Shown: piece by piece, positions 9,811-25,553 of the stretch
How positions within the stretch are numbered: position 1 is the first letter of the stretch
Layout of the letters: the number at the start of each line of letters is the position of its first letter
Assembly: GCF_020991475.1 (NCBI RefSeq)
Contig: NZ_JAJMPA010000002.1
Location: 248,001 to 312,000 of the forward strand
From: Pedobacter sp. MC2016-14
GTDB taxonomy: Bacteria; Bacteroidota; Bacteroidia; Sphingobacteriales; Sphingobacteriaceae
Direction: 5' to 3'
Length of the DNA: 64,000 nt
Program-made: the position numbers and the translations under genes
The notes under the pieces: model-generated
Told to the model about the DNA's origin: nothing
What the model saw: the letters and a program-made list of their open reading frames with translations, nothing else
Databases searched by the model: none

Positions 9811-11601
9811 CTAGTGATGCGAACTTAAGGAAATGGTAGCCAACAACTGTTGTGCTTCTGCCAGCTGTTGCCCAATGTCATTAATTGTAGTGTTACCTGG
9901 TAGTTTTAAACTTGTGAGCAGTGTTTTGTAGTACGCTATACCTTGTTGCAGTTGTTCGGCAAACTTAACGAAGTATTTGCTCTTCTTTTCTGTAAAGGTA
10001 TTTAGCTGCGCAGCAATATCTTTTTTTAAATATTCGATGTATAGCTGCAACTCGTTGATAAAAAGGTTTGGGCGACTCACTTCGTCTAATAAATTGACTC
10101 TTCCATAAATATGCCCTACCATTTCTTTTAAGGTATAGATGCCAGAGAAATAAGCCAGGTTAGGTCCCGGACAAATACTTACCGCTTTACTCTCCCTCGG
10201 CTTTAGTACGCCATTTTTTAGGTAAGCAGCAGCACAAAGGCCTTCACATAAACAAATTTTTTCTGTAATGGCCGCATATTGCTCCTGGTGTTGCGCTGGC
10301 TCAAGTGCAAGGCTGTTTAATTGTTTGATTTTTAAGTTTTGGTACTCCCTTGATGCCGTGCAGATTGGCTTTTCTGTAAATTCGGTATTGGTAGACAAAA
10401 ACTTTTTGGTACAAGGGCTTCCCGGTCTGCCTTTTTCGATACGTTCCATCCTCAGCTGCTCCATGGTACTTTTTCTAAAGTTGTTAAACAATACGCCCAG
10501 TGGAGAAGAATTGCTAACGTAATAATCGTCTGCAGTAGCATCTGTTAAAGCTTCCATCGTTTGCTCGTCTACATTCGTTGTTTCTGGTACCAGTAAAAAC
10601 GGACTTCCCCAACCAGCAGCATCAAGCTGATAATGGCTGATTAAAAATTGGTGCTCTTCTGCAGTACCTATTCCGCCCTGGGCAGTGATCTTAATTACAG
10701 GGGCAGCAACTGGTTTAAATTCCTTGGCCAATAGGGCAGCCTGGTATATGGTCAGCAGCTCATTCCTTAGCTCAGAACGCTTTTCTTTAAATTCCTCCAA
10801 TATGGGCCCCATCAGCATGCCCTCCGTTGCAAAAGCATGGCCGCCGCAGTTTAAACCAGATTCTATTCTGAATTCAGATACCCAAAGCCCTTTTTTAGCC
10901 AGCATTTTAGCCTGGATCAGCGCAGAGCGGAAATCGCTTACCTTCAGGATAATGTGTTTGTAAATTATTCCTTTTTTATCGGGGTAAAAATCCCGGCATT
11001 GTTCCATGTAAGTATACAGCCTTGGATTTAAACCGGCAGAGATAACCACCGAGGATTGCAGCGAGCTTTTAGCAAAACCACGCATTGCTGCCAGTGCATC
11101 TGTAAAATCGTTGCCCATAGCTTCGTGGTTAGCGGCGTAGTTTATTTTATCTACCTTAGACATGATATTTACATCAATGGAACCCATCTTCATTTGCCGG
11201 CGAAGCTCGTCCTGTAAACATGTCTTTTCTTCTCCATCTTCCATCTTCATCATGTGCAGGTAAATGGATTTCAGTCTTGAAGTATCAGGAAGCAATTCAA
11301 AGTAGGTATGGATTTCTTCACCTGGATGAAATTGCTGCAATCTCAATACTTCAAACTGTTTTCGAACCAGGGCAGACAGTAAGTTTAGGTAGGCTGTAAT
11401 TCTCTTGGCCCGCCCATCATCTTCTTTTCCGATAAATATATATTCCAGCTTATTTGCCTCGCAATGAAATTTTCTCATCCTTTCGGTAAGCTCGTCATCT
11501 ACAATTGAAACTACAGAAGATATGCCATATCTGGCTACTTTTAGTGGTGTGTCAATGGAATAGCCCAGACCTAAAACAGGAATGTGGAATGTATGCTGCA
11601 T
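9811..11601 (-). CDS. Unrecognised conserved-looking protein, TIM-barrel/nitronate-monooxygenase-like with Cys-rich tail
   Basis: 596 residues from ATG 11601; an in-frame GTG at 11628 would add nine. I do not firmly recognise it. The opening FHIPVLGLGYSIDTPLKVARYGISS resembles the first strand and helix of FMN-dependent TIM barrels, and VIKITAQGGIGTAEEHQFL followed by DAAGWGSPFLLVPE resembles the phosphate-binding GGI loop of nitronate monooxygenase-like enzymes. The last third is cysteine-rich (PCTKKF, PICTAS, CLCEGLC, SICPGPN), which could bind an iron-sulfur cluster or other metal. The C-terminal 100 residues are helical. No signal peptide. It faces the oxygen-sensor genes and carries a candidate Fnr-type box upstream, so I infer expression at low oxygen. 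Activity unknown. Confidence 0.6.
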   Translation of the reverse strand: MQHTFHIPVLGLGYSIDTPLKVARYGISSVVSIVDDELTERMRKFHCEANKLEYIFIGKEDDGRAKRITAYLNLLSALVRKQFEVLRLQQFHPGEEIHTYFELLPDTSRLKSIYLHMMKMEDGEEKTCLQDELRRQMKMGSIDVNIMSKVDKINYAANHEAMGNDFTDALAAMRGFAKSSLQSSVVISAGLNPRLYTYMEQCRDFYPDKKGIIYKHIILKVSDFRSALIQAKMLAKKGLWVSEFRIESGLNCGGHAFATEGMLMGPILEEFKEKRSELRNELLTIYQAALLAKEFKPVAAPVIKITAQGGIGTAEEHQFLISHYQLDAAGWGSPFLLVPETTNVDEQTMEALTDATADDYYVSNSSPLGVLFNNFRKSTMEQLRMERIEKGRPGSPCTKKFLSTNTEFTEKPICTASREYQNLKIKQLNSLALEPAQHQEQYAAITEKICLCEGLCAAAYLKNGVLKPRESKAVSICPGPNLAYFSGIYTLKEMVGHIYGRVNLLDEVSRPNLFINELQLYIEYLKKDIAAQLNTFTEKKSKYFVKFAEQLQQGIAYYKTLLTSLKLPGNTTINDIGQQLAEAQQLLATISLSSHH

Positions 11602-11657
11602 GCTGTATAATTTAAATATCTGTTCCACAAAAGAGCAGAGATTTAAGGGCTTAAAAT

Positions 11658-11671
11658 ATGATACAGGTCAC
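11658..11671 (-). promoter_or_regulatory. Candidate Crp/Fnr-type box for the TIM-barrel-like gene
   Basis: Plus strand ATGAT-ACAG-GTCAC (TGA-N6-TCA); read on the minus strand GTGAC-CTGT-ATCAT. Its centre (11664.5) is 36.5 bp from the last G of a weak -7-like element CTCTTTTG on the minus strand (ending at 11628). This is the spacing also seen at 11702 and 14479. The -7 match is poor (two mismatches). Confidence 0.5.
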
Positions 11672-11701: not shown

Positions 11702-11745
11702 GTGATAACGATCATGGCTGGCTGCTATAATGCTGCAGATATTTG
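11702..11745 (+). promoter_or_regulatory. Crp/Fnr-type box and -7 element of the 114-residue membrane protein gene
   Basis: GTGAT-AACG-ATCAT at 11702-11715 has intact TGAT and ATCA cores around four bases, as in Fnr sites (TTGAT-N4-ATCAA) except for the outermost bases. The -7-like element GATATTTG (one mismatch to TAnnTTTG) ends at 11745, 36.5 bp from the box centre. With a start point a few bases further on, the box centre lies near -41.5, the usual class II activator position. Confidence 0.6.
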
Positions 11746-11766: not shown

Positions 11767-12111
11767 ATGGCAACATTAACTATCACAACCGCAACAAATT
11801 CAGTAACTGCAACACCAGAGTCTTTATGGACTAAATATTTGAACTTTGCCGATGCTCAAAAACCAAATCACCTGGTATGGTTCCTTTTTTCTATTGTACT
11901 CCATGCCGGTGCACTGGTACCCCTAACTTTTATCATTGTATATGTACTTGGTGGTGCAGTACTGCCTTCTCTGGCTGTCAGTATGCTCATCTTCTTCGCC
12001 AACATTGTAGCCAACATGAGCAGTGCCAGTACCAGGGTAACCATTTTCCTTTTTGGGTTTAGCTTGATGGCACATGCTACCATTATTCTTCTGGCGCTTG
12101 CAGGTGTCTAG
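11767..12111 (+). CDS. Small three-helix membrane protein of unknown function
   Basis: 114 residues. A soluble N-terminus of about 35 residues (Thr-rich, then [19 protein letters not shown]) precedes three hydrophobic helices at about 40-60, 65-85 and 92-112. No cysteines or obvious haem or metal motif apart from scattered histidines (LHAG, MAHAT). I do not recognise the family. It is divergent from the TIM-barrel-like gene, lies directly upstream of the FixL-like kinase, and its promoter region has the best-placed Fnr-type box pair, so I infer that it is part of the low-oxygen response. Confidence 0.65.
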
Positions 12112-12173: not shown

Positions 12174-13358
12174 ATGGAGAACGCAAAGTTATTAAGGGCC
12201 ATCATAGAAACTGCAATTGATGGGATCATTACCCTGAGTGAGCGTGGGATCATTGAGAGCCTTAATCCTGCTGCGCTGAAGCTTTTTGGCTACGAATTGG
12301 AGGAGGTAATTGGACAAAATATTTCTCTCCTGATGCCAGAACCTGATAAAAGTTCGCATGACAGGTATCTTGAACACTATAAGCAAACTGGCGAAAGACA
12401 TATTATGGGTACAGGGAGAGAAGTCCGGGGCCTTCGCAAAGATGGCTCCACTTTTCCCTTCAGGTTAGCTGTAAATGAGGTGCAATATGAAGACCGGAAG
12501 ATTTTTACTGGTTTTGTACACGATTTAAGTAAGGAGAAAGAAGCGGAGGAGCGTTTGCGCGATTATGCCAATGAACTTGAAGATCTGGTGGAAGAAAGGA
12601 CTAAATCCCTTAAGAAAACAGTGATTGCCCTTAGGGATGCTAAGGAAGAGGTTAGCTTATCGTTAGAGAAGGAAAAGGAACTGAACCAGATGAAAAGTCG
12701 TTTTGTTTCTATGGCTTCACATGAGTTTAGGACGCCCTTAAGCTCCGTGCAGCTTTCTTCTTCCCTGATCGGAAAATATGCCGAACCTTTCCAAAATAAG
12801 AACATTGATAAACATGTTCATAAAATAAAAAATGCTGTAGGTAACCTCACTACCATTTTAAATGATTTTCTCTCGCTGGAAAGATTGGAGGCTGGTAAAG
12901 TTGAGCCTGCATTTCACACTTTTGATCTCGTAAAACTTGCAGAAGAAATTACGGAAGAGATGCAGCTGATTGCCAAACAAGATCAAAATATCATTTATCA
13001 GCATACAGGATTAGGTAGTGTTGTTTCTCTTGATCAGAACCTGCTTAAAAATTGCATGATTAATTTGATCAATAACGCTATAAAATACTCCGGTGAAAAT
13101 ACCTTCATAGAGTTTAATACGGAAATTACAGGAGACAGGTGTATTGTAACCATTAAAGACAATGGTATTGGCATTCCTGAAGTTGACCAAAAACAACTAT
13201 TTCAGCCTTTTTTTAGGGCGCATAATACAGGTAATATCCCCGGCACTGGATTAGGATTGAACATTGTATTGCGTTATGCAGGATTAATGAACGGTGCAGT
13301 AAACTTTGAAAGCAAGGTTAACGAGGGTACAACTTTTACATTATCCTTCAGAAAATAA
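12174..13358 (+). CDS. FixL-like haem-PAS oxygen-sensing histidine kinase
   Basis: 394 residues, no transmembrane segment, so cytoplasmic. Residues 1-125 are a PAS domain closely resembling the haem PAS of rhizobial FixL: LLMPEPDKSSHD, then RHIMGTGREVRG and DGSTFPFRLAVNE. His62 aligns with the haem-iron ligand His200 of Bradyrhizobium FixL, His76 with His214 and Arg82 with the oxygen-gating Arg220; the spacing (14 and 20 residues) is exact. A coiled-coil linker (126-172) leads to HisKA with phospho-acceptor His183 (SHEFRTPL) and an HATPase domain (NLINNAIKYS, DNGIGIP, GTGLGLNI). The REC-Crp fusion gene follows 40 bp downstream and is the obvious partner. Known FixL shuts off when oxygen binds; the same polarity is inferred here. 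Confidence 0.85.
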   Translation: MENAKLLRAIIETAIDGIITLSERGIIESLNPAALKLFGYELEEVIGQNISLLMPEPDKSSHDRYLEHYKQTGERHIMGTGREVRGLRKDGSTFPFRLAVNEVQYEDRKIFTGFVHDLSKEKEAEERLRDYANELEDLVEERTKSLKKTVIALRDAKEEVSLSLEKEKELNQMKSRFVSMASHEFRTPLSSVQLSSSLIGKYAEPFQNKNIDKHVHKIKNAVGNLTTILNDFLSLERLEAGKVEPAFHTFDLVKLAEEITEEMQLIAKQDQNIIYQHTGLGSVVSLDQNLLKNCMINLINNAIKYSGENTFIEFNTEITGDRCIVTIKDNGIGIPEVDQKQLFQPFFRAHNTGNIPGTGLGLNIVLRYAGLMNGAVNFESKVNEGTTFTLSFRK

Positions 13359-13398
13359 AATTAGCACAGCATCATCAAATACAGATAAATTTACACGG

Positions 13399-14460
13399 AT
13401 GACAACAGCATTGAACATATTATTAATTGAGGACAATGAAGATATTAGGGAAAGTACTGCCGAAATTCTTCAACTTGCAGGTTATAACGTAATCGATGCG
13501 GATAATGGCAAAACGGGCTTGGAACTTGCGCAGGTAAAATTGCCGGATTTGATTTTGTGTGACATCATGATGCCAGAACTGGATGGCTACGGTGTACTGT
13601 ACATGTTGGGTAAAAATTCGGAAACGGCAAACATTCCCTTCATTTTTTTAACGGCCAAGGCAGAACGCATGGATATGCGTAAAGGGATGGAGATGGGTGC
13701 AGATGACTATTTGGTAAAACCTTTTGACGATGTGGAATTGCTGAACGCGGTTGAGAGCCGGCTGAGCAAAAAACAAAAGCAGGAACAGTTTTACAGCAAA
13801 TCCATTGAGGAACTGAGTACGCTGGTTTCTGGTACGGCTGGACTTAAAGAATTACAGAAATTGATTCAGGAGCGTAAAATACGCCCGGTAAAGAAAAAAC
13901 AGATCATTTATTACGAAGGAGATATGGTCTCCGGCATTTACCTGGTGCTAAGTGGCAAGGTTAAAACATTTAAAATGAGTGCCGATGGACGGGAGCTGCT
14001 GACTGGCATGCATGGTGCGGAAGAATATTTTGGCGTACCTGCTTTACTGTTAAATGAGCCTTATGCGGAAACAGCAGAGGCATTGGAGGATGCTACCATT
14101 TGTCAGCTACCAAAAGAAATGATTGACGAATTGTTGAGCCGCTATCCTGATGTGGCCAGGCAGTTTATCCGAATCCTTTCCAATAAGTTATTAGATAAGG
14201 AAGAACAGCTTCTGCAGCTGGCTTATCATTCTGTGCGCAAACGTATGGCTGATGTACTGCTTCGGCTAATTAAGACAGAAGCAGAAGGTGAACAAGTTGT
14301 TTTGCGTGTTTCCAGAGATAACCTTGCGGCAATGGCGGGCATGGCTACAGAGACCGTAAGCCGGATTTTGAGTGACTTTAAGGAAGAAGGTTTGATTGAA
14401 AGAAAAGGCGGACAGATCATCATTTTATCGCAGTTGAAACTGCAGCAGATGAAAAACTGA
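13399..14460 (+). CDS. Response regulator fused to a Crp/Fnr-type transcription factor (REC-cNMP-HTH)
   Basis: 353 residues from ATG 13399; an upstream in-frame ATG at 13306 lies inside the kinase gene and adds no domain. Residues 1-118 are a receiver: acidic pair Glu11/Asp12, phospho-acceptor Asp55 (LILCDIMMPELDG), Thr85, Lys107 (YLVKPF). Residues about 150-270 are a cyclic-nucleotide-binding-type beta-roll (YYEGDMVSGIYLVLSGKVK), without the N-terminal cysteine cluster of Fnr, followed by a Crp winged helix. Its recognition helix ATETVSRILSDF keeps the E--SR residues with which Fnr reads TGA. This places FixJ-like input and FixK/Fnr-like output in one chain. Paired with the haem-PAS kinase upstream; its stop is 18 bp from a candidate binding site of its own kind. 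Confidence 0.88.
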   Translation: MTTALNILLIEDNEDIRESTAEILQLAGYNVIDADNGKTGLELAQVKLPDLILCDIMMPELDGYGVLYMLGKNSETANIPFIFLTAKAERMDMRKGMEMGADDYLVKPFDDVELLNAVESRLSKKQKQEQFYSKSIEELSTLVSGTAGLKELQKLIQERKIRPVKKKQIIYYEGDMVSGIYLVLSGKVKTFKMSADGRELLTGMHGAEEYFGVPALLLNEPYAETAEALEDATICQLPKEMIDELLSRYPDVARQFIRILSNKLLDKEEQLLQLAYHSVRKRMADVLLRLIKTEAEGEQVVLRVSRDNLAAMAGMATETVSRILSDFKEEGLIERKGGQIIILSQLKLQQMKN

Positions 14461-14478
14461 CGAACATCATATTTCCTG

Positions 14479-14522
14479 GTGATATCACTCATTCCTTAGC
14501 GCTGTGCTTGCAGCTATTTTTG
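14479..14522 (+). promoter_or_regulatory. Crp/Fnr-type box and -7 element of the LDH-like/hemN operon
   Basis: GTGAT-ATCA-CTCAT at 14479-14492 (TGA-N6-TCA) and an exact TAnnTTTG element, TATTTTTG, at 14515-14522. Box centre 14485.5 to last G is 36.5 bp, identical to the divergent promoters near 11.7 kb. The box also contains the perfect 10-bp palindrome GTGATATCAC. Start codon of the first gene at 14538. Confidence 0.62.
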
Positions 14523-14537
14523 TGTAAATCAATTAGC

Positions 14538-14981
14538 ATGAGAGTAGTAGCCTACAGTATAAAGTCCTTCGAAAAGGAACCTTTGGCTTTAGCCAATCAT
14601 AAAAAACATGATATTACCTTAATTTCCAACCAACTGGGTGCAGAAACTGTAAATTATGCGGAGGGAAAGGAAGCAGTAATTGTATTTACCGATGATGTAG
14701 TTTCTGCTGCGGTCATCCATCAGCTTGCTGATATGGGCGTAAAATACATCGCTACACGTTCAACATCAACCATTCACATTGATCAGGAAGCTGCAGCTGC
14801 CAGAAACATCAAAATAGCCAATGTACCTGCTGTGGCCATGATGGCCGTTGCTGCAGATGAAATGCCGATGGCCCTGGCCAGGGAAACCATTTTAAATCTG
14901 GATAAATGGCAACAAAACAGATGCCTTGGTAATGCATGCGTATGCTCCAGATCTTGTGATCAGGTTCATTCCAAAATTTAA
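14538..14981 (+). CDS. Lone N-terminal half of a D-2-hydroxyacid dehydrogenase (D-lactate dehydrogenase-like)
   Basis: 147 residues from ATG 14538 (MRVVAYSIKSFEKEPLALAN). The sequence matches the substrate-side domain of D-lactate dehydrogenases up to KYIATRSTSTIHIDQEAAAARNIKIANVPA. A full enzyme (about 330 residues) then has the NAD Rossmann domain; here the frame ends within 45 residues in a segment that loses similarity (DKWQQNRCLGNACVCSRSC). Without the Rossmann fold it should not be a working dehydrogenase. It may be a decayed gene or a retained single-domain protein. It is preceded by a well-formed Fnr-type promoter and followed after 10 bp by hemN, so at least the leader position is functional for hemN. 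Call as domain firm; biological role uncertain. Confidence 0.6.
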   Translation: MRVVAYSIKSFEKEPLALANHKKHDITLISNQLGAETVNYAEGKEAVIVFTDDVVSAAVIHQLADMGVKYIATRSTSTIHIDQEAAAARNIKIANVPAVAMMAVAADEMPMALARETILNLDKWQQNRCLGNACVCSRSCDQVHSKI

Positions 14982-14991
14982 GCCAGCAGCT

Positions 14992-16353
14992 ATGGATCCT
15001 AAACTGATAGAAAAATATCATGTAGCCGCGCCACGGTACACCAGTTATCCAACAGTTCCTTACTGGGATATTGAAGGTTTTGAAGAAGAAAAATGGCTGC
15101 ATGCAGTACGTGGTACATTTAACCACAGCAATAGCAGGGACGGCATTAGTCTGTATATCCATTTGCCTTTTTGTGAAAGTCTTTGTACCTACTGTGGCTG
15201 TAACACCCGGATTACGCGCAACCATAAAGTAGAAGAACCTTATCTCAAAGCAGTATTAAAAGAGTGGTCGATGTACCTTAAAATATTCGGCCGGCAACCC
15301 ATCATCCGTGAACTTCATCTTGGTGGTGGAACACCTACTTTTTTTAGTGCAGAAAATCTGGAATTCCTGATTAAAGGTTTGCTTAAAGATGCCATTTTAC
15401 ATGCCGAAGCTGAGTTCGGTTTTGAGGCACATCCAGCCAATACTACTGATGAACATTTAGAAAGCTTATATAATTTAGGCTTCAAAAGGTTAAGCCTTGG
15501 CGTGCAGGATTTTGATCCTCTGGTGCAATTGGTCATCAACAGGATTCAAAGCGTAGATGATGTGGCCAGGGTTACAGAAAGCGCAAGGAGTAAAGGTTAC
15601 AATTCCATTAATTATGATTTGATTTATGGCTTGCCACATCAAACCATAGCGGGCCTTGCGGCAACCATTACCGCTACGTTGGAGTTAAAACCAGATCGTA
15701 TTGCATTTTATAGTTATGCGCATGTGCCCTGGGTAAAACCTGGTCAGCGCAGGTACACAGAAAAAGATCTGCCTTCTGCCGAAGTAAAGCAACAGCTGTA
15801 TGAATTGGGGCGCGAAATGTTAAAAGCCGGCGGATACGTTGAAGTGGGTATGGATCATTTTACCTTAGTAACGGATAGTTTATACAAAGCTGCTCTGGAA
15901 GGTCTTTTACACCGCAATTTTATGGGCTACACACAACAATACAGCAAATTGATGGTTGGATTGGGTGTTTCCTCTATAAGTGACAGCTGGAGTGCCTTTG
16001 CACAAAATGTTAAAAAGGTGGAGGAATACCTGGAAATTGTAAACAGCGGAAGGCTTCCGGTCTTTAAGGGACATATCTTAAACGCAGAAGATTTAATCAT
16101 CAGGATGCACATCTTAAACCTGATGTGTAAAGGCAAAACTTCCTGGACTTTGGCTGAGGCACAAACTAAGGCATTAGCAGCAGGATTGGAAAGGATGAAG
16201 TTGATTGAAGCAGATGGTTTGGTTATTTTGGAAGATACTGGAATGATGGTAACCGAAACAGGGAAAAGGTTTTTAAGAAATATATGTATGGCTTTAGACA
16301 GCAGGCTCTGGGCCAATCAGCCACAAACGCAATTGTTTAGTATGGCAGGTTAG
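14992..16353 (+). CDS. hemN: Oxygen-independent coproporphyrinogen III oxidase (radical SAM)
   Basis: 453 residues from ATG 14992 (MDPKLIEKYHVAAPRYTSYP); an upstream TTG/ATG extension to 14926 is rejected because the known family start fits here. Catalyses the oxygen-independent decarboxylation of coproporphyrinogen III to protoporphyrinogen IX in haem synthesis. The radical-SAM cluster motif is CESLCTYC (Cys61, Cys65, Cys68) with the HemN-specific extra Cys70; ELHLGGGTPTFF and the tail domain (LMCKGKTSW) are present. Length equals the E. coli enzyme. It shares the Fnr-type promoter at 14479 with the LDH-like gene, which fits its known induction at low oxygen. Convergent, without gap, with the TauE/SafE-type gene. 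Confidence 0.95.
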   Translation: MDPKLIEKYHVAAPRYTSYPTVPYWDIEGFEEEKWLHAVRGTFNHSNSRDGISLYIHLPFCESLCTYCGCNTRITRNHKVEEPYLKAVLKEWSMYLKIFGRQPIIRELHLGGGTPTFFSAENLEFLIKGLLKDAILHAEAEFGFEAHPANTTDEHLESLYNLGFKRLSLGVQDFDPLVQLVINRIQSVDDVARVTESARSKGYNSINYDLIYGLPHQTIAGLAATITATLELKPDRIAFYSYAHVPWVKPGQRRYTEKDLPSAEVKQQLYELGREMLKAGGYVEVGMDHFTLVTDSLYKAALEGLLHRNFMGYTQQYSKLMVGLGVSSISDSWSAFAQNVKKVEEYLEIVNSGRLPVFKGHILNAEDLIIRMHILNLMCKGKTSWTLAEAQTKALAAGLERMKLIEADGLVILEDTGMMVTETGKRFLRNICMALDSRLWANQPQTQLFSMAG

Positions 16354-17460: not shown

Positions 17461-18855
17461 TTAGTCTTTAGGTGGTGCAATAAATGTGGTTTCAAACCGA
17501 TCAATGACCTTTCCCCCGGAAACGAGTTTGAAACTTAAACCTGTTTTATATTTTTCAATTGATTTTAGGGGTAAAATCACGAAAAAGGTCATCTTAACAC
17601 TGCCTCCGTAAGCAATGCTGTCTTCCTTCTCTATATATTGTATTTTGGCTTTAGGGTCATCAGGAATAATCTCAAACTTGAGGTTATGGCTGGTTTTGTT
17701 TACCAGCTCCGCATTATACAGGTTACTTACTGTCTGCGTTTCATCTCGTAACTGGTAAAGTGTTCCGCTTGCCCTTAATATGGTCGCCTTAACCTCACTG
17801 CGGTTGATGAGCAAAAAGCTTAAGGTGCCGATGAGCACCAGCAGCACCGCACTATAGCCATAGATCCGTTTGCTGAGTTTAAAGCCCTGTTTATTTTTAA
17901 TTTCGTCTTCAGATTTAAAACCAATCAAGCGGAGCGGCCTGTTAATTTTTTCCATCACCATATCGCAGGCATCTATGCAAGCCGTACAATTGATACATTC
18001 CATTTGTGTGCCGTTCCGGATGTCGATGCCGGTAGGGCATACCTGAACACACAATTTACAATCAATACAATCGCCTTTTGGGTTCTCTTCCCGCTTTCTT
18101 TTACCCCGGGGTTCTCCCCGGATATAATCATAGGCAACCAATATGGTCTGGTTGTCCAGCAGTACCCCCTGTAATCTTCCGTACGGACAGGCTACGGTAC
18201 AAACCAATTCCCGCATTCTGGAAAATACCAGATAAAATACGGTGGTGAATACAGAGATAGACAAAAAGCCACTGATGTGCTGTGTCAGCGGTTCAGTGAT
18301 GATCGTTAACAATTGCGCAGAACCAATCAGGTAGGCCAGGAACACATTGGCAATTAAAAATGAAATGCCTATAAAAAGTACGTGTTTGAAAGTTTTCTTC
18401 AGGATTTTTTCTGTGTTCATGGGGCCCTCATCCAGCTTTTTTTGCTGAATGCTGTCTCCCTCAATCCAGTATTCAATTTTGCGGAACACCATCTCCATAA
18501 AGATGGTTTGAGGGCATGCCCAACCGCAAAAGACACGGCCAAATACAACCGTAAAAAGTACAATAAAAACAATAAAACTTAGCAGGGCCAGTACAAACAG
18601 GTAAAAATCCTGGGGCCAGAATACAATGCCAAAGAAAACGAATTTTCTTTCCAGCACATTGAGCAAAACCAACTGCTCCCCGTTTAACCTTAAAAATGGT
18701 GCTGCAAAAAGCAGCACCAGAAAAAAGTAACTTAGCAGGGAGCGATATTTGTACAATTGCCCTTTAATCACCTTCGCATAAATCCATTTTCGTTTTTTTC
18801 CGTCATCTGTAACGGTTGAAATCTGATTTCTGAAATTTTGCGGATCTTGTGACAT
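17461..18855 (-). CDS. ccoG: Cytochrome c oxidase accessory protein CcoG (RdxB/FixG)
   Basis: 464 residues with five or so membrane helices and a central ferredoxin domain holding two 4Fe-4S motifs: CIDCKLCVQVCP and CINCTACIDACD. The second helix region has GRVFCGWACPQTIF, typical of CcoG. The C-terminal periplasmic part (VSNLYNAELVNKTSHNLKFEI) is an Ig-like FixG domain. CcoG reduces copper for insertion into the CuB site of cbb3 oxidase in studied proteobacteria. Located between ccoP (18 bp) and ccoH (4 bp). Confidence 0.93.
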   Translation of the reverse strand: MSQDPQNFRNQISTVTDDGKKRKWIYAKVIKGQLYKYRSLLSYFFLVLLFAAPFLRLNGEQLVLLNVLERKFVFFGIVFWPQDFYLFVLALLSFIVFIVLFTVVFGRVFCGWACPQTIFMEMVFRKIEYWIEGDSIQQKKLDEGPMNTEKILKKTFKHVLFIGISFLIANVFLAYLIGSAQLLTIITEPLTQHISGFLSISVFTTVFYLVFSRMRELVCTVACPYGRLQGVLLDNQTILVAYDYIRGEPRGKRKREENPKGDCIDCKLCVQVCPTGIDIRNGTQMECINCTACIDACDMVMEKINRPLRLIGFKSEDEIKNKQGFKLSKRIYGYSAVLLVLIGTLSFLLINRSEVKATILRASGTLYQLRDETQTVSNLYNAELVNKTSHNLKFEIIPDDPKAKIQYIEKEDSIAYGGSVKMTFFVILPLKSIEKYKTGLSFKLVSGGKVIDRFETTFIAPPKD

Positions 18856-18873: not shown

Positions 18874-19710
18874 TTATAATTTATCTCCCTGCGGGGCTTT
18901 TGCACCTGCAGGATTACTGCCCTGTAATGACAAAACATAGTTTGTAATGTCTGCGATCTGCTGGGCGCTCAATGATTTTTCCCAGGCGATCATACCTTTC
19001 TCAGGAACACCATATTTTATGGTTTTGAATACCTCTTTAACCGTGCCGCCATGCAGCCAGTATTCATCGGTAAGGTTTGGCCCTACAATTCCCTGGGCAT
19101 GATCACCATGACATGGGGTACAACGGTTGGCGAATAAACTTGCGCCGCTTTTAATCACGGCATCCTCTTTACTCAGTTCGATGTTGTTTTCGTTTACCGC
19201 ACTTGCTGCATTCACCGGGTTGGCCAGAAATGCCAGTTTGGCTTCCTCTGCTTGTTCCAGCTCTACCACATACTCTTCATCCTGTAGTTTACCGGTACCA
19301 AAAACGTGGTAGTTTAACAGGTAGCCAATTGCAAAGATGATGGTGGCATAAAAAAGAACCATAAACCAGGCTGGGGTAGGATTGTTAAGCTCTGCAATGC
19401 CATCAAACTTATGCTCCATAACCAGGTCTTTTTCCTCCTCCAGTGGTTTAAGCTGCATCAGCTTGCTCCATATAGATGGTTTTTTCGGAATTAAGGCCAA
19501 TGCTGCCTCTTCCTCCTGTTTTAACCTGGCTTTTTCTTCCGGTGTAGCAAAACGCGTTGGGTTGGTTGATTCCTTGATGTAAAATTTAATTACTTTGAGC
19601 ATCAGTATAGACACACAAAGAATGATAATTGCGGTAACCAGCATCAGGCCGATTACAATATCTACCGAAGTACTGCCGGTTGACCAGCCGCTGTTAACTG
19701 CCTCGTTCAT
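18874..19710 (-). CDS. ccoP: cbb3 oxidase subunit CcoP, mono-haem
   Basis: 278 residues. An N-terminal helix (15-45) and a charged linker lead to a second helix preceded by HKFDGIAELNNPTPAWF, the conserved CcoP anchor motif. The C-terminal cytochrome c domain has a single CTPCH (197-201) and the axial Met240 (GVPEKGMIAW). Proteobacterial CcoP has two haem c domains; this one has one, as in other Bacteroidota. Receives electrons and passes them to CcoO and the haem-copper centre. Its start overlaps the ccoQ stop by 17 bp. Confidence 0.92.
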   Translation of the reverse strand: MNEAVNSGWSTGSTSVDIVIGLMLVTAIIILCVSILMLKVIKFYIKESTNPTRFATPEEKARLKQEEEAALALIPKKPSIWSKLMQLKPLEEEKDLVMEHKFDGIAELNNPTPAWFMVLFYATIIFAIGYLLNYHVFGTGKLQDEEYVVELEQAEEAKLAFLANPVNAASAVNENNIELSKEDAVIKSGASLFANRCTPCHGDHAQGIVGPNLTDEYWLHGGTVKEVFKTIKYGVPEKGMIAWEKSLSAQQIADITNYVLSLQGSNPAGAKAPQGDKL

Positions 19711-19902: not shown

Positions 19903-22014
19903 TTATTTTGCTTTAATATCTGTTCCCAAACGTTGCAGGTAGGCAATGATGGCTATGATCTCCTTATCGCTCTTTACTTTAATGTTGTTTTGCTTTAAGT
20001 CTGCGGCAATGGCTTTCGCCTGTTCATCAAGTCTGGCATTGGCTTCATATTCAAAACCTTCCGGGTAGGGCACACCAAGTGTACGCATGGCATTTATTTT
20101 AGCTACTGTAGTGGTAGTATCCAAAGTTTGGTCAATTAACCATTCGTACGGAGGCATAATACTTCCCGGCGACATCGTCTGCGGATCATAAAGGTGGTTG
20201 TAATGCCATGCATTGCCATATTTTCCACCCTCGCGCTGTAAGTCTGGTCCTGTACGTTTGGAGCCCCATAAAAATGGATGATCGTATACGAATTCTCCTG
20301 CCTTACTGTATTCTCCATAACGCTCCGTTTCAGAACGGAATGGCCTGATCATTTGCGAGTGACAGTTTACACAACCTTCACGGATGTATACATCCCTACC
20401 ATGCAATTCTAAAGGCGTATATGGTTTTACACTGCTTATGGTAGGTACGTTAGATTTTATGGTAAATGTTGGCATCATTTCAATCATCCCGCCAATCAGG
20501 ATCACAACAAGAGAGAGCACCATAAATACCATTGGTTTACGCTCCAGTACGCGGTGCCATTTTTTCTCCGCGCCTTGTGCTACATAATCTGCTGTTAGTG
20601 CCTGCGCTTCTGCGGGTTCATTGGCAACCAGTTTACCCAATACCATGGTTTTGTAAAGGTTGTAAGTCATTACAATTACACCAATCAGGTATAATGCACC
20701 ACCTAGTGCCCTCAGCATATACATCGGGATAATTTGAATCACAGTTTCCAGAAAGTTTGGATACTTCAATACACCTTCAGCAGTAAATTCTTTCCACATT
20801 AAACCTTGTGTAAAACCGGCAAAGTAAAGTGGTACGGCATAGAATATGATACCCAAAGTGCCTATCCAGAAATGGAATGATGCCAGCTTTTTAGAATACA
20901 AATTAGTATTGAAAATTCTTGGAATTAGCCAGTAAAGAATCCCGAAAGTTAAAAATCCGTTCCAGCCCAATGCACCCACATGTACGTGAGCTACTATCCA
21001 ATCGGTATAGTGCGCTATAGCATTGATCTGTTTTAAAGCCAGCATGGGGCCTTCAAATGTGGCCATACCATAGGCGGTAATACCCACCACCATAAATTTG
21101 AGCTTAGGATCTTCCCTTACTTTATCCCAGGCACCACGAAGGGTTAACAAGCCATTGATCATGCCTCCCCAGCTTGGTGCAATCAGCATAATAGAAAAAG
21201 CTACGCCTAAAGATTGTGCCCAACCTGGTAAGGAAGTATATAACAAATGGTGCGGACCGGCCCAAATGTAGATGAAAATCAGCGACCAAAAGTGCAGGAT
21301 ACTCAGTTTGTAAGAATATACTGGTCTGCCGGCCATCTTAGGCAAGTAGTAATACATCATCCCCAGGTAAGGTGTAGTCAGGAAAAATGCCACCGCATTG
21401 TGTCCGTACCACCATTGTACCAGCGCATCTTGTACACCTGCATACAAATAGTAACTTTTGAAAGCAGAAATAGGGAGCTGAATGGAATTGGTAATGTGCA
21501 GTACTGCTACTGTCACAAATGTAGCTATGTAAAACCAGATGGCTACATACATGTGTTTTTCCCTTCTTTTAATGATGGTTCCAAACATGTTGATCCCAAA
21601 TACTACCCAAATTAGCGTGATGGCGATATCAATAGGCCATTCCATTTCGGCATACTCATGTGCTGTAGTAAGCCCCAGTGGAAGCGTAATAGCAGTAGCT
21701 ACAATAATTAATTGCCAGCCCCAAAAGTGGATAGAACTAAGTGCATCGCTGAACATGCGGGCTTTAAGTAACCGCTGAAGTGAATAATAAACGCCCATAA
21801 AAATGGCATTGCCTACAAAAGCAAAAATTACTGCATTGGTATGCAATGGACGGATGCGGCCAAAAGTGGTGTATTGCGAGCCCATGTTGAGTGCAGGTTT
21901 AAAAAGCTGCATGGCAACCAGCAGGCCCACCGTCATACCTACTATGCCCCAAACAATGGTGGCGATAGCAAAGTTCCTGACGATCTTGTTGTCGTAATAA
22001 AATTTCTCAGTCAT
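19903..22014 (-). CDS. ccoNO: cbb3 oxidase fused subunits I and II (CcoN-CcoO)
   Basis: 703 residues. Residues 1-460 are CcoN, the haem-copper subunit with about 12 helices: His58 (low-spin haem b), His205 and His255/His256 (CuB, GHN and GPHH), and His343/His345 (VAHVHVG, haem ligands). A linker leads to a helix at about 493-513 and the CcoO cytochrome c domain with CVNCH (548-552) and the RPFRSETERYGEYSKAGEF segment typical of CcoO. Separate genes in proteobacteria, fused here, which is known in Bacteroidota. Reduces oxygen to water with high affinity. Preceded by ccoS (16 bp) and followed by ccoQ (11 bp). Confidence 0.95.
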   Translation of the reverse strand: MTEKFYYDNKIVRNFAIATIVWGIVGMTVGLLVAMQLFKPALNMGSQYTTFGRIRPLHTNAVIFAFVGNAIFMGVYYSLQRLLKARMFSDALSSIHFWGWQLIIVATAITLPLGLTTAHEYAEMEWPIDIAITLIWVVFGINMFGTIIKRREKHMYVAIWFYIATFVTVAVLHITNSIQLPISAFKSYYLYAGVQDALVQWWYGHNAVAFFLTTPYLGMMYYYLPKMAGRPVYSYKLSILHFWSLIFIYIWAGPHHLLYTSLPGWAQSLGVAFSIMLIAPSWGGMINGLLTLRGAWDKVREDPKLKFMVVGITAYGMATFEGPMLALKQINAIAHYTDWIVAHVHVGALGWNGFLTFGILYWLIPRIFNTNLYSKKLASFHFWIGTLGIIFYAVPLYFAGFTQGLMWKEFTAEGVLKYPNFLETVIQIIPMYMLRALGGALYLIGVIVMTYNLYKTMVLGKLVANEPAEAQALTADYVAQGAEKKWHRVLERKPMVFMVLSLVVILIGGMIEMMPTFTIKSNVPTISSVKPYTPLELHGRDVYIREGCVNCHSQMIRPFRSETERYGEYSKAGEFVYDHPFLWGSKRTGPDLQREGGKYGNAWHYNHLYDPQTMSPGSIMPPYEWLIDQTLDTTTTVAKINAMRTLGVPYPEGFEYEANARLDEQAKAIAADLKQNNIKVKSDKEIIAIIAYLQRLGTDIKAK

Positions 22015-22030: not shown

Positions 22031-22225
22031 TTAACGGATGGTTTGTTGTGGTAATATAGAATCAGCGTCCGGCTCAGCGGGCTTTTGTGTATCCTCAAAT
22101 AAGATGCGGATTGCCGGCGTACAGGTATCATCGTTCTGCCCCGTTCGGCTGGCCCAGAAAAAGGCCAGTAAAAACATCAGGGCCAGGAAAATACTCAGGC
22201 CTATCAATAAAAAGATCATGTTCAT
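22031..22225 (-). CDS. ccoS: cbb3 oxidase maturation protein CcoS
   Basis: 64 residues: one N-terminal helix (IFLLIGLSIFLALMFLLAFFWA) followed by SRTGQNDDTCTPAIRILFED, the CcoS pattern of a helix ending in FxWA and a polar tail with DD and a downstream Asp. CcoS is needed for haem b and copper insertion. The start overlaps the ccoI stop by 4 bp. Confidence 0.88.
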   Translation of the reverse strand: MNMIFLLIGLSIFLALMFLLAFFWASRTGQNDDTCTPAIRILFEDTQKPAEPDADSILPQQTIR

Positions 22226-24639
22226 AACAAGTGGTTTTTATGGGCATACCAACGTGTGGCAATGCTGGTGAAAAGAATAATGGTAGCAGTGCTCAAAGGC
22301 ATCAGGATGGCCGCAATTAAGGGTGATAAAATGCCCTGTACCGCAAAGGAGAACCCCACAATATTGTAAAGTACAGAGATGCCGAAACTCATATGGATTA
22401 CCTTAACGGCGTCTTTGGCCTGTTGCAGAAACTGAGGCAATTTTGCGAAACCTTCCGCATCCAGGATGGCATCACAACCCGGTGAAAAATTGTTTACATT
22501 GTCGGTTACCGCCACACCGAGATCACTTTGTTTTAATGCGCCGGCATCATTTAACCCATCACCGCACATCAATACTTTCTTTCCTGTATGTTGAAGTTTT
22601 AAAATGTAATCCAGCTTGTTTTGTGGAGATTGCTTAAAATGCATCTGTTGCAGACTTGGAAAAAATGGAATCAGGCTTTCTTTGTCATGGTCCTGATCGC
22701 CGGAGAGCAAATGCAGGTCTGCCTTTTTTGCCAGTTTAAAAATCAATTCTTTGAAACCCTTGCGCCATTGCTGTTTAAATAGAAAATAACCAATATATTC
22801 ATCGTTGATCATCACATGTATAGTACTTCCTTTTGGAGAGTTGATCAGTGGCAGGCCAATAAAAGTGGAACTTCCCAATTTCACGATATTGTTATTCACC
22901 CGGCCACTGATGCCCCTTCCAATTTTTTCCCTGAAAGCATCTGTGGGATATTTTTTTGACAGATCAAGCAGCCTCAGCAATTCCCGGCTTAAGGGATGTC
23001 CTGAATTTCTTGCTAAGTCAGCGATCATTTGCTGTTGAGATAAAGGCAATTCTGTTTGCTGCTGATCTCCTTTGATAAAGATGAGTTTTTCTGCATCCGG
23101 ATTGGTTATTGTACCGGTTTTATCAAATACAAAGGTGTTTATCCTGGCCAGTTCCTCTACTACAGCGGTGCTTTTAAGGTAAAATTTATTTTTATCAAAA
23201 ATGCTAAGTACCGCTGCAAGTGTGAAAGGGGAACTGAGCGCAAGCGCACAAGGACAGGCAATAATCAGCACGGCTGTAAAAGCCGCTACTGCTTTATTTA
23301 AATCATGGTTAAAAAGCCAGTAAGCTGCAGCACCAAAGGCAATAAGTAGTAAAACATAGCTAAAGTATTTGCTCACCGTATCACTAAATGTCTTGATTTC
23401 TCTTTGTTTAGATCCAAAAGTTTCGTTGTTCCACAGCTTTGTCAGGTAGCTTTGTGAAACTGGTTTTACAACTTCAAGTTCAATGGCCCCGGCCAATTGT
23501 CTGCCGCCGGCATATACAACTTCACCCAAAACTTTCTCTACCGGTAAGGATTCTCCGGTAACAAAGCTGAAATCTATTTTAGATTCACCTTTTAGCAGAA
23601 TGGCATCGGCGGGAATAATCTCTCCGCTGCGCACCAGCATCCGGTCGCCAATCCTTAATTCACTTAAAGGAGCAGGTTTTTCTATTCCGTTTTTAATCCG
23701 GGTAACGGCCACAGGGAAATAGGACCTGTAGTCCCTTTCAAATGAAAGATAGTGATAGGTGTGCTGTTGCATCCATTTGCCAATGAGCAGAAAAAATACA
23801 AGGGCACATAAGGTATCCACAAAGCCCGCACCCGTATGCGTAATGATTTCTATGGCAGAACGGATAAACATGACGGCGATACCCAATGCCAGCGGGAAAT
23901 CCAGGTTTAAATTTTTTACTTTAAGATTTTTCCATGCTGAAATAAAATAGTCACGACTGCTGTAGAGTAACACGGGAACGGAAAATGCCAGGTTAAGCCA
24001 ACCAAAAAAGTCTTTAAACTGTTGCTCAAAGCTTGCTAGTCCAAAATACTCGGGAAAACTAAGCAGCATGACATTGCCAAAGCAAAAACCCGCCACGGCA
24101 ATTTTTGTGATCAGTCCCCGGTCTGCATTTCCTGACTTTTGTTCTTTAATCACATCCTGTAAGCTGATTAAAGGCTCATATCCAATTGCGGCCAGCGTTT
24201 CTACTACACCCCGCAAGGAAACCTCTGTATTTCTATAGGTGATGGTTACTTGTTTCTTTAGAAAGTCAATCCGTGATTGTACAATAGAAGGATTAATTTT
24301 ATAAAGGTTCTCAAGCAGCCAAATGCAGGAGCTGCAATGTATAGCCGGAATGTACAGCGTAATTACCGTTGTTTTTTCATCTTTATAGTCAACTAATCCG
24401 GCGGCTATGCTTTCCTCATCCAGGTATTCAAAATGTTTTTCCTGATGCTTTTGCGTTTGTCCCGGTACATCATTATAGGCATAATAGCTGCAAAGATCAT
24501 TTTTGCTCAATATCTGGTAAACACCCTGACAGCCAACGCAGCAGAATTGCTTGCTTTCCAGTACAAATGGATTTGCCGGAAGGTCATCTCCACAGTGGTA
24601 ACATTGAGTTTGGGCGGACGTGGTTGCTGGCTTTAACAT
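22222..24639 (-). CDS. ccoI: Copper-translocating P-type ATPase CcoI (FixI)
   Basis: 805 residues. N-terminal cysteine motifs CYHC (13-16) and CCVGC (33-37) and an HMA-type domain with CSSC (102-105) precede eight membrane helices. CPC at 462-464 lies in the ion channel; DKTGT (506-510) holds the phosphorylated Asp506; TGES and GDGLNDAGAL are present. FixI-type ATPases export copper to the periplasmic side for the cbb3 oxidase. First gene of the cco operon, divergent from terC; the 120-bp gap holds a full Crp/Fnr-type box and a second half-site. Confidence 0.94.
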   Translation of the reverse strand: MLKPATTSAQTQCYHCGDDLPANPFVLESKQFCCVGCQGVYQILSKNDLCSYYAYNDVPGQTQKHQEKHFEYLDEESIAAGLVDYKDEKTTVITLYIPAIHCSSCIWLLENLYKINPSIVQSRIDFLKKQVTITYRNTEVSLRGVVETLAAIGYEPLISLQDVIKEQKSGNADRGLITKIAVAGFCFGNVMLLSFPEYFGLASFEQQFKDFFGWLNLAFSVPVLLYSSRDYFISAWKNLKVKNLNLDFPLALGIAVMFIRSAIEIITHTGAGFVDTLCALVFFLLIGKWMQQHTYHYLSFERDYRSYFPVAVTRIKNGIEKPAPLSELRIGDRMLVRSGEIIPADAILLKGESKIDFSFVTGESLPVEKVLGEVVYAGGRQLAGAIELEVVKPVSQSYLTKLWNNETFGSKQREIKTFSDTVSKYFSYVLLLIAFGAAAYWLFNHDLNKAVAAFTAVLIIACPCALALSSPFTLAAVLSIFDKNKFYLKSTAVVEELARINTFVFDKTGTITNPDAEKLIFIKGDQQQTELPLSQQQMIADLARNSGHPLSRELLRLLDLSKKYPTDAFREKIGRGISGRVNNNIVKLGSSTFIGLPLINSPKGSTIHVMINDEYIGYFLFKQQWRKGFKELIFKLAKKADLHLLSGDQDHDKESLIPFFPSLQQMHFKQSPQNKLDYILKLQHTGKKVLMCGDGLNDAGALKQSDLGVAVTDNVNNFSPGCDAILDAEGFAKLPQFLQQAKDAVKVIHMSFGISVLYNIVGFSFAVQGILSPLIAAILMPLSTATIILFTSIATRWYAHKNHLL

Positions 24640-24656: not shown

Positions 24657-24722
24657 CAAAAGTGCCGCTTAGGGGTTGTTTTAAAAATGATGGAAGCCGT
24701 CCTAAAGCGTGACCTTAATCAC
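24657..24722 (-). promoter_or_regulatory. Control region of the cco operon: full box, half-site and -7-like element
   Basis: Read on the minus strand: full box GTGAT-TAAG-GTCAC at 24722-24709; 22 bp further down a half-site ending in ATCAT at 24700-24687; then CACTTTTG (one mismatch to TAnnTTTG) ending at 24657. The half-site centre (24693.5) is 36.5 bp from that G, the same spacing as at the other three promoters. The full box lies two helical turns further up, a class I-like position. The full box also sits between -7 and -30 of the terC direction. Confidence 0.5.
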
Positions 24723-24731
24723 TTTTTTAAT

Positions 24732-24739
24732 TATATTTG
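24732..24739 (+). promoter_or_regulatory. -7 element of the terC gene
   Basis: TATATTTG, exact TAnnTTTG, 22 bp before the terC start codon. No TTG at 17-21 bp upstream; that position is taken up by the Crp/Fnr-type box at 24709-24722, so the regulator could affect terC too. Confidence 0.4.
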
Positions 24740-24761: not shown

Positions 24762-25553
24762 ATGGACTTTTTGCATACAATTTTAGGTGATGATATTCAG
24801 GCTGGGCTTTTAATTATCCTTAACCTTATCGTCATTGAAAGCTTACTTTCAGTAGATAATGCCGCAGTATTGGCTACTATGGTGATGGATTTACCGAAAG
24901 ATCAGCGTGAAAAAGCTTTAAAATATGGCATCATCGGGGCCTACGTTTTTCGTGGGATCTGTCTGTTCCTTGCAGCATGGCTGGTTACCATCTGGTGGTT
25001 AAAGCCGCTTGGTGGTTTTTATTTGCTGTACCTGGCTATAGATTTTTTACTTAAAAAGAGAAATAAAGCGAAGATAAAAGAAGAGGAAGAGCCTGTAGTG
25101 GATAAGGCGAAAAGCTGGATTTACCGCTCTACTGTTGGCCTGGTAGGAAATTTTTGGGCTACAGTGGCTTTGGTAGAAGTTATGGACCTTGCTTTTTCTA
25201 TAGACAATGTATTTGCCGCGGTTGCTTTTACAGACCATATCTGGCTGATCTACATCGGCGTATTTATCGGGATCCTGGCGATGAGGTTTGTTGCCCAGGC
25301 TTTTGTAAAACTGATGGAGAAATTTACTTTTTTGGAAACAGCGGCCTTTATTGTGATCGGTGTGTTAGGACTTAAACTCAGTTCTTCACTTGTGACTCAT
25401 TTTTATCCGGAATCCCCAATCTCACATATCCTTGAAAGTGAAAAAACAGATTTGTTTGTTTCTATTTTTACCGTATGCGTATTTGCCGTTCCTGTAATCA
25501 GCTCGCTTTTATTTAACTTTCCAAAACGCCATATTACGAACACAGAGGAATAA
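24762..25553 (+). CDS. TerC family integral membrane protein
   Basis: 263 residues with about seven helices. Two acidic motifs inside the membrane, ESLLSVDNAAVL in helix 1 and LAFSIDNVFAAV in the middle, are the hallmark of TerC, and a charged cytoplasmic loop (KKRNKAKIKEEEEPVVDKAK) separates the halves. TerC-type proteins have been linked to tellurite resistance and to manganese export; metal export is the best-supported general role. Divergent from ccoI with a 120-bp shared regulatory region. No tellurite-resistance partners nearby, so the Mn-type role is more likely. Confidence 0.9.
   Translation: MDFLHTILGDDIQAGLLIILNLIVIESLLSVDNAAVLATMVMDLPKDQREKALKYGIIGAYVFRGICLFLAAWLVTIWWLKPLGGFYLLYLAIDFLLKKRNKAKIKEEEEPVVDKAKSWIYRSTVGLVGNFWATVALVEVMDLAFSIDNVFAAVAFTDHIWLIYIGVFIGILAMRFVAQAFVKLMEKFTFLETAAFIVIGVLGLKLSSSLVTHFYPESPISHILESEKTDLFVSIFTVCVFAVPVISSLLFNFPKRHITNTEE

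Follow-up and report, generated by a model that had tools for sequence, protein, structure and literature searches.

A haem-PAS histidine kinase and a REC-Crp/Fnr response regulator predicted to form an oxygen switch beside cbb3 oxidase and hemN genes in Bacteroidota

We analysed a 64,000-nucleotide stretch of the genome of Pedobacter sp. MC2016-14 (contig NZ_JAJMPA010000002.1, positions 248,001 to 312,000), referred to here as the window and numbered from its first nucleotide; it sits in a 5.04-Mb genome whose closest named relatives are mostly Pedobacter. Our subject is a pair of adjacent plus-strand genes encoding a FixL-like histidine kinase with a predicted haem-binding PAS sensor domain (12174..13358, 394 amino acids) and a response regulator joining a receiver (REC) to a Crp/Fnr-type transcription factor (13399..14460, 353 amino acids, referred to here as REC-Crp). 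An earlier sequence-only reading had proposed that these two proteins form an oxygen circuit, and below we describe the pair, its neighbours, relatives and promoters before weighing that proposal.

The kinase, the regulator and their neighbours

The kinase matches the Pfam domains PAS, HisKA and HATPase_c, each above its gathering score. When the PAS domain (residues 7–135) was compared with the solved structures of the Protein Data Bank (PDB), the best match was Bradyrhizobium japonicum FixL (E 4.5e-34), followed by Escherichia coli DosP (6.4e-19), with blue-light photoreceptors far weaker (8.3e-9); all FixL and DosP entries score E ≤ 2.7e-17 and every other PAS entry 1.5e-9 or weaker. In the alignment to B. 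japonicum FixL, H62, H76 and R82 stand at the exact spacing that the sequence-only reading had described, opposite the residues which we take to be H200, H214 and R220 of FixL, and this places H62 at the axial-histidine and R82 at the distal-arginine position of a FixL-type haem PAS. The kinase thus has the sequence characteristics of a FixL-type sensor with predicted haem. The proposed three-residue fingerprint is nevertheless reduced to two: H62 and R82 are kept in the group of relatives closest to the window, and H76 was dropped as not conserved, many relatives having Arg, Ser, Asn or Lys in its place. The phospho-acceptor H183 lies in the motif HEFRTP, and H183, E184, R186, T187 and P188 are kept in 106 of 107 relatives, the remaining one having a gap there. 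The kinase reaches 175.2 bits with NF041777, the equivalog model for whole FixL proteins, far below the cut-off of 850. The 50 PDB structure matches listed for the AlphaFold model of the kinase are histidine kinases, phytochromes and light-oxygen-voltage (LOV) kinase chimeras, including 4gcz and 8a3u which both carry FixL, and there is no haem-PAS entry among them. The models of both proteins fit the domain assignments, with arrangements that are not firm (predicted template modelling scores, pTM, of 0.42 and 0.44).

REC-Crp most likely starts at ATG 13399 rather than TTG 13306, and it matches the Pfam domains Response_reg, cNMP_binding, HTH_Crp_2 and Crp, each above its gathering score. The receiver residues E11, D12 and D55 are invariant in 107/107 relatives, and the cNMP-binding fold is followed by a Crp-type helix-turn-helix (HTH) with the recognition helix ETVSR (E318, S321 and R322), which is the architecture of FixK and Fnr and agrees with the earlier description of a full receiver joined to a full Crp/Fnr factor with E--SR residues. 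All 50 PDB structure matches listed for the REC-Crp model are of the Crp/Fnr type. A phospho-acceptor histidine and an aspartate with its acidic pair, as expected of a two-component system, are therefore encoded in adjacent genes. The only cysteines in REC-Crp of the window are C54 and C235, and 102/108 family members have between 1 and 3. The cysteine set for a [4Fe-4S] cluster of the Fnr type was not found in the window protein, and with two cysteines only it should not hold such a cluster. We note that Cys54 (13558-13560), immediately before the phospho-acceptor D55, is invariant in 107/107 relatives.

The sequence-only reading had also suggested that FixJ and FixK have been collapsed into one chain, and in an evolutionary sense this does not hold. 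The likeness to FixL is in the PAS domain only, the output of REC-Crp is cNMP_binding and HTH_Crp_2 rather than the LuxR/FixJ-type HTH of FixJ, and the protein falls short of the family models for Fnr (NF008365, 102.9 bits, cut-off 228) and FixK (NF050806, 85.5 bits, cut-off 300). The closest solved relatives of the receiver, among the matches listed, are of the PleD, RpaA, CpxR and PhoB types, no FixJ occurs among the best 60 of 362 PDB matches of REC-Crp, and none of these 60 spans the receiver and the Crp half together in its best stretch. On domain content, family-model scores and solved-structure matches we rejected a literal FixJ-FixK fusion, and judged by these comparisons the rhizobial likeness does not extend beyond the PAS domain, the Crp/Fnr output and the general logic of the circuit.

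The kinase operon begins with a gene for a hydrophobic protein of 114 amino acids (11767..12111, plus strand; a membrane protein as judged by eye), which has no Pfam or NCBIfam match and occurs in only part of the orthologues. Behind REC-Crp lie a gene for a 147-amino acid protein with a 2-Hacid_dh match (N-terminal dehydrogenase; 14538..14981, plus strand) and hemN, encoding the oxygen-independent coproporphyrinogen III oxidase (14992..16353, plus strand; TIGR00538, 415.9 bits, cut-off 325). The product of 14538-14981 is only part of a D-2-hydroxyacid dehydrogenase, and it stays between REC-Crp and hemN in orthologues. On the minus strand follow ccoG (17461..18855; TIGR02745, over the cut-off), a gene for a ccoP-like subunit (18874..19710; below the TIGR00782 cut-off), a fused ccoNO gene of the cbb3-type oxidase (19903..22014; over the cut-offs of PRK14485, TIGR00780 and TIGR00781) and, as the first gene of the cco operon, one for a heavy-metal-type P-ATPase which is CcoI by context (22222..24639; TIGR01494 cut-off exceeded, cut-offs for the copper and heavy-metal P-ATPase subfamilies not reached). 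Between ccoI and ccoNO lies a ccoS-like frame, identified by eye, which links the two. The cbb3 operon and hemN said to adjoin the pair are thus identified by family models. A 605-amino acid frame at 9811-11628 on the minus strand, divergent from the kinase operon, has no Pfam match at E 0.01.

Distribution of the pair

The kinase and REC-Crp pair is not peculiar to this genome and recurs across the Bacteroidota. REC-Crp matches were found at E ≤ 1e-40 in 49 of the 59 near genomes (a set that includes the window's own), at 1e-60 in at least 74 of 149 genomes of the class, and at 1e-40 in at least 43 of 296 genomes of the phylum; the phylum count is a minimum because no more than 7 candidates were scored per genome (no more than 13 in the class search). 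From the best 80 of 122 named loci we examined 77 (L139-L215), leaving out L216-L218 which match in the receiver only. Our locus sets comprise 34 closer named loci (L139-L172; Pedobacter, Mucilaginibacter, Daejeonella, Chryseobacterium, Epilithonimonas and others), 43 distant named loci, and 31 from relatives and class samples, and it should be noted that the genomes overlap and the sets are not independent. The kinase gene lies directly upstream of the regulator gene in 77/77 named loci and in 107/108 overall, L028 being the sole miss.

The neighbourhood is also conserved, as was seen when the survey and synteny comparison proposed in the sequence-only reading were carried out. The block of kinase, REC-Crp, short dehydrogenase-like gene, hemN and opposite-strand cco genes is kept in 13 of 14 close-orthologue regions (L041-L054), L051 being the exception, and in L057-L059, where the regulators are 53% identical, the pair again has hemN and cco close by, the cco genes here being on the same strand. 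Further afield, ccoNO is within the fetched stretch in 43/77 named loci and hemN in 26 of the 34 closer loci, counts that are affected by the many fetched stretches which end at contig ends. In a plasmid collection 11 records match, six of them over 80% or more of the regulator (Hymenobacter, Runella and Spirosoma), and the plasmid REC-Crp records are annotated as response regulators or transcriptional regulators. In one genome the REC-Crp frame is split (L023/L054, genome G002), with the kinase and the cco/hemN neighbours still recognisable.

Operators and promoter geometry

Palindromic boxes with the core TGAY-N4-RTCA precede all three operons in the window, and the three sites picked out in the sequence-only reading (11702, 14479 and 24709) proved to be real. 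The kinase operon has an upstream operator ATGATACAGGTCAC (RTGAYN4RTCAY; 11658..11671) and, 44 base pairs (bp) further downstream, a proximal operator GTGATAACGATCAT (11702..11715) which is a full palindrome; two boxes 44 bp apart are also found before this operon in L041-L045. The hemN promoter has a distal operator TGACGAACATCA (14458..14469), overlapping the REC-Crp stop codon, and 22 bp from it a proximal operator TGATATCACTCA (14480..14491), which is the box earlier placed at 14479. The ccoI-cco operon has one full palindrome, GTGATTAAGGTCAC on the minus strand (24709..24722), and 22 bp downstream a proximal site survives as its right half (TCA). Ahead of a divergent gene at 24762, a -7-type element TATATTTG (24732-24739) was found by eye at a distance of 16.5 bp from the centre of the 24709 box, and therefore this box might repress the divergent gene.

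In the set of 14 orthologous loci (window included), RTGAYN4RTCAY is present upstream of the kinase operon in 13 (shuffle expectation 0.14 loci), of ccoI in 13 (0.04; 14 when relaxed) and of ccoNO in 10 (0.05), and the shorter TGAYN4RTCA in the hemN promoter region of all 14. A scan of TGAY-Nx-RTCA with x from 0 to 12 found x = 4 in 13, 14, 12 and 14 of the 14 loci (kinase, hemN, ccoNO and ccoI, respectively), with no other x exceeding 2. Kinase promoters of the wider set have x = 4 in 35/43 distant, 13/23 class-sample and 14/34 closer loci, other spacers reaching 4 at most. When 1024 trinucleotide dyads were ranked upstream of the kinase without any presumed motif, TGA-N6-TCA came first (35/42 distant loci; 66/97 overall, the next dyad having 51), and 38/42 ccoNO promoters have this box. 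After thinning to regulators less than 75% identical, the box with x = 4 remains in 15/22 kinase and 12/12 ccoNO promoters, with other spacers at 2 or fewer. The classical Fnr box TTGAT-N4-ATCAA was rejected, as its 68 matches in the window (up to two mismatches allowed, 57.7 expected) are no enrichment; position 1 of the box consensus is a purine or C, not T as in that box.

TGA-N6-TCA pairs are most often exactly 22 bp apart, with 21 such pairs in 43 ccoNO promoters, 20 in 26 hemN promoters (three more at 23 bp) and 18 in the 66 distant and class-sample kinase promoters. The Bacteroidota -7 element has the consensus TAnnTTTG, as cited in PMC7366714. In our promoters the distance from the box centre to the start of this element is 29.5 bp for the proximal box and 51.5 bp for the distal one, with 21 and 23 counts, respectively, for ccoNO (25 loci have the element) and 19 and 16 for hemN (19 loci have it; three more counts at 52.5 bp), and no other distance has more than 3 counts. 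In the 14 orthologous loci, where a -7-like octamer was one with 5 or 6 of 6 letters matching, it is in register in 14/14 hemN promoters, 14/14 ccoI promoters (best other of 60 offsets, 4) and 12/14 ccoNO promoters (best other, 1). We used these orthologous-locus counts for ccoI in place of a wider-set count of 1/17 judged an artefact, as the 10-kb flanks end inside ccoI. Within the window, the -7-like element GATATTTG of the kinase operon (11738..11745, plus strand) and the -7 element TATTTTTG of the hemN promoter (14515..14522, plus strand) both start 29.5 bp from the proximal box centre, and the -7-like element CACTTTTG of the ccoI promoter (24657..24664, minus strand) starts 51.5 bp from its box centre; the kinase-operon spacing is the same in 7/7 of the closest clade (window and L041-L046). 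On the assumption that the -7 element spans about -12 to -5, the boxes would be near -41.5 and -63.5. A position of about -41.5 is that of a class II activator, and the arrangement of box and -7 element is consistent with such activation, the sign of regulation being a prediction from this geometry.

Box and -7 patterns occur at eight places genome-wide (control 4) in one form and nine (control 2) in another, 6/8 and 3/9 of them intergenic, and they include all three window promoters. Outside the window, such sites stand before an acyl-CoA dehydrogenase-like gene, a gene for a metallo-beta-lactamase/rhodanese protein and an unassigned gene that follows a small Crp-like regulator, with two more before epimerase-like and short-chain dehydrogenase-like genes (by eye); given the controls, some of these sites are chance occurrences. 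Two boxes 37 bp apart were also seen upstream of a DJ-1/PfpI gene (L106 1973-2023). A box ATGATTAAGATCAT lies about 141 bp upstream of a gene for a 272-amino acid histidine kinase that lacks a sensor domain (G000:C1:1507478-1508293, minus strand; L039 1480-2298) and is 49% identical to the transmitter of the window kinase. In the 58 other near genomes its matches are longer kinases, except for one 293-amino acid frame near a contig end. A possible role for the 272-amino acid protein is that of a feedback kinase or phosphatase acting on REC-Crp.

Interpretation, rival readings and known systems

We interpret the locus as a direct two-component oxygen switch in which the kinase and REC-Crp act on the cbb3 and hemN promoters, and give this a probability of roughly 0.7. 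At low oxygen the deoxy-haem PAS kinase would autophosphorylate at H183 and then phosphorylate D55 of REC-Crp, which would bind the TGAY-N4-RTCA boxes near -41.5 and -63.5 as a Crp-type dimer. It would then activate three operons: ccoI-cco, encoding the high-affinity cbb3 oxidase together with its ATPase; hemN, for oxygen-independent haem synthesis supplying both oxidase and sensor; and, by autoregulation, its own (kinase) operon. Oxygen bound to the haem and held by R82 would switch the kinase off. The earlier circuit proposal is supported at the level of sequence by the domain architectures with their invariant catalytic residues, the FixL residues, the adjacency of kinase and regulator, the synteny with cco and hemN, and the geometry of box and -7 element. 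This is a real, conserved and probably oxygen-responsive two-component system with a Crp/Fnr factor as its response regulator.

Several observations weigh against this interpretation. Haem binding, phosphotransfer and DNA binding are predictions from sequence, and the domain arrangement in the REC-Crp model is uncertain (pTM 0.42). The kinase operon has the -7 element in register in 7/14 orthologous loci, the next best offset having 6/14, and in 3/22 after thinning, and the distant and class-sample kinase promoters give only 3 in-register counts (20/66 loci have TAnnTTTG). Upstream of the kinase in the 34 closer named loci TGA-N6-TCA is outside the top six dyads, perhaps because another gene intervenes before the kinase in some of them, and L057-L059 have no TGAYN4RTCA box before the kinase, L058 alone having one behind the regulator. 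Before ccoNO of the window there is no TGA-N6-TCA box; the gene is probably transcribed through ccoI and the ccoS-like frame, with the ccoI promoter serving all. The bare palindrome is modestly enriched genome-wide (44 places against 10 for a reversed control under strict matching, 76 against 54 under relaxed matching among the matches listed), with most sites inside reading frames (of 58 sites in 55 fetched stretches, 11 are intergenic by a simple open reading frame caller), and we rejected it as a guide to the regulon, given these control counts and the few intergenic sites. Finally, the genome has a second, Fnr-like Crp/Fnr protein (L220) with a cysteine set which could bind the same boxes, and the covariation of helix and box described below is not corrected for phylogeny.

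Of the rival readings, the one that survives best, although we regard it as unlikely, is that the PAS domain binds haem while the signal is nitric oxide, carbon monoxide or redox state, or that the kinase acts mainly as a phosphatase, which would make this a respiratory regulator with another input. The pocket is not constant across the family: the distant named loci keep H62 in 42/43 and have Met (37), Arg (4) or Leu (1) at position 82, the L190 kinase being truncated, and the relatives and class samples (n = 30) include seven loci with H62 and R82, 16 with H62 only and seven with neither (some of them fragments), position 82 being Met, Ile, Leu or Lys in 16. Within the closer group, L172 (Chryseobacterium soli) has lost both residues, with Tyr at 62 and Lys at 82. 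The other 33 of these 34 loci keep both H62 and R82, and the neighbouring genes are low-oxygen genes, which argue for oxygen as the input in the group to which the window belongs. Because position 82 varies, the predicted FixL-like oxygen chemistry is supported for this group only and not for the whole family.

Somewhat less probable is that the boxes belong to L220, a separate Fe-S protein of the Fnr type, in which case REC-Crp would have other targets and the kinase-regulator operon would be a member of an Fnr regulon. L220 has cysteines at 7, 12, 15 and 106 and the helix ETVFR, its gene adjoins a mobA-like gene (by eye), and Fnr-family boxes have the TGA core in common. Yet when we used L220 as a query in the genomes of 35 of the 80 named loci, REC-Crp was the only match in 12 of these 35 genomes at E ≤ 1e-10, a threshold that more divergent Crp proteins could escape, and in each of the 12 loci one or more boxes stand upstream of the kinase, downstream of the regulator or upstream of ccoNO. 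The flank of the box also shifts with residue 321 of the REC-Crp helix. Among the 99 loci scored (no helix was obtained for L215), 38 have Ser and 61 have Ile at this residue, and G occupies the first half-site position in 35/78 half-sites with Ser321 compared with 10/168 with Ile321 (Fisher 1.6e-12, ignoring phylogeny). REC-Crp is probably the binder of the boxes, given that all 12 genomes in which it is the sole Fnr-like match retain them.

An ordinary, haem-free PAS domain whose likeness to FixL reflects shared fold and ancestry would suit the lack of conservation of H76 and the poor kinase model at residues 73-80, and is the most improbable of the three given that FixL and DosP entries outrank all other PAS entries, blue-light photoreceptors included, and that the axial-histidine position is kept in 75/77 named loci.

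The oxygen switch that we favour shares with the FixL-FixJ-FixK cascade of Bradyrhizobium and Sinorhizobium a kinase whose haem-PAS domain has the axial His and the distal Arg, and the control of cbb3 genes at low oxygen by a Crp/Fnr-type factor (see PMC4999443). It differs in that the Crp/Fnr factor itself carries the receiver, the host belongs to the Bacteroidota, regulator and transmitter are not of the FixJ and FixL types by the models tested, and direct autoregulation of the kinase operon is predicted. The hFixL-FxkR-FixK pathway of Rhizobium leguminosarum, as described in PMC7888657, likewise leads from a kinase to a response regulator and a Crp/Fnr factor on fixNOQP, with FxkR and FixK as separate proteins where we find a single REC-Crp. 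DosP, the second-best PDB match group of the kinase PAS, has a cyclic di-GMP phosphodiesterase as output in place of a histidine kinase, and its Met ligand presumably occupies a different position from the Met of the distant kinase relatives. FNR has the E--SR helix and the TGA/TCA box core, both found here together with a predicted activator position of -41.5, whereas REC-Crp has no cluster cysteine set and its activity is presumably set by phosphorylation of the fused receiver.

The sequence-only reading had considered the complete circuit little described, and no description of a haem-PAS kinase with a REC-Crp regulator was found in the open-access literature searched, including passages of PMC8199190, PMC10710014, PMC4558063, PMC1183210 and PMC7888657; of the eight papers there that name both FixL and Bacteroidetes, PMC4999443 and PMC5733055 deal with Alphaproteobacteria and sediment communities. 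The REC-Crp domain pair has likely been mentioned earlier in reviews of response-regulator output domains.

Taken together, this looks like a conserved yet little-described route for switching on low-oxygen respiration in the Bacteroidota, and the same literature gave no account of how aerobic members of the phylum sense oxygen and control high-affinity respiration. We consider it an even bet that this is the main low-oxygen regulator of aerobic Bacteroidota, a single autoregulated system replacing Fnr whose operator code (TGAY-N4-RTCA, 22-bp tandem, about -41.5 and -63.5) can be read phylum-wide and whose sensor has had its ligand chemistry adjusted from lineage to lineage by substitutions at a single residue of the pocket (Arg to Met and others). 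A system of two proteins whose promoter code can be read would allow direct predictions of regulons and offer a simple pathway from haem to promoter and, if our interpretation is true, it would represent a second evolutionary route from haem-PAS sensing to the control of cbb3 oxidase by a Crp/Fnr-type factor.

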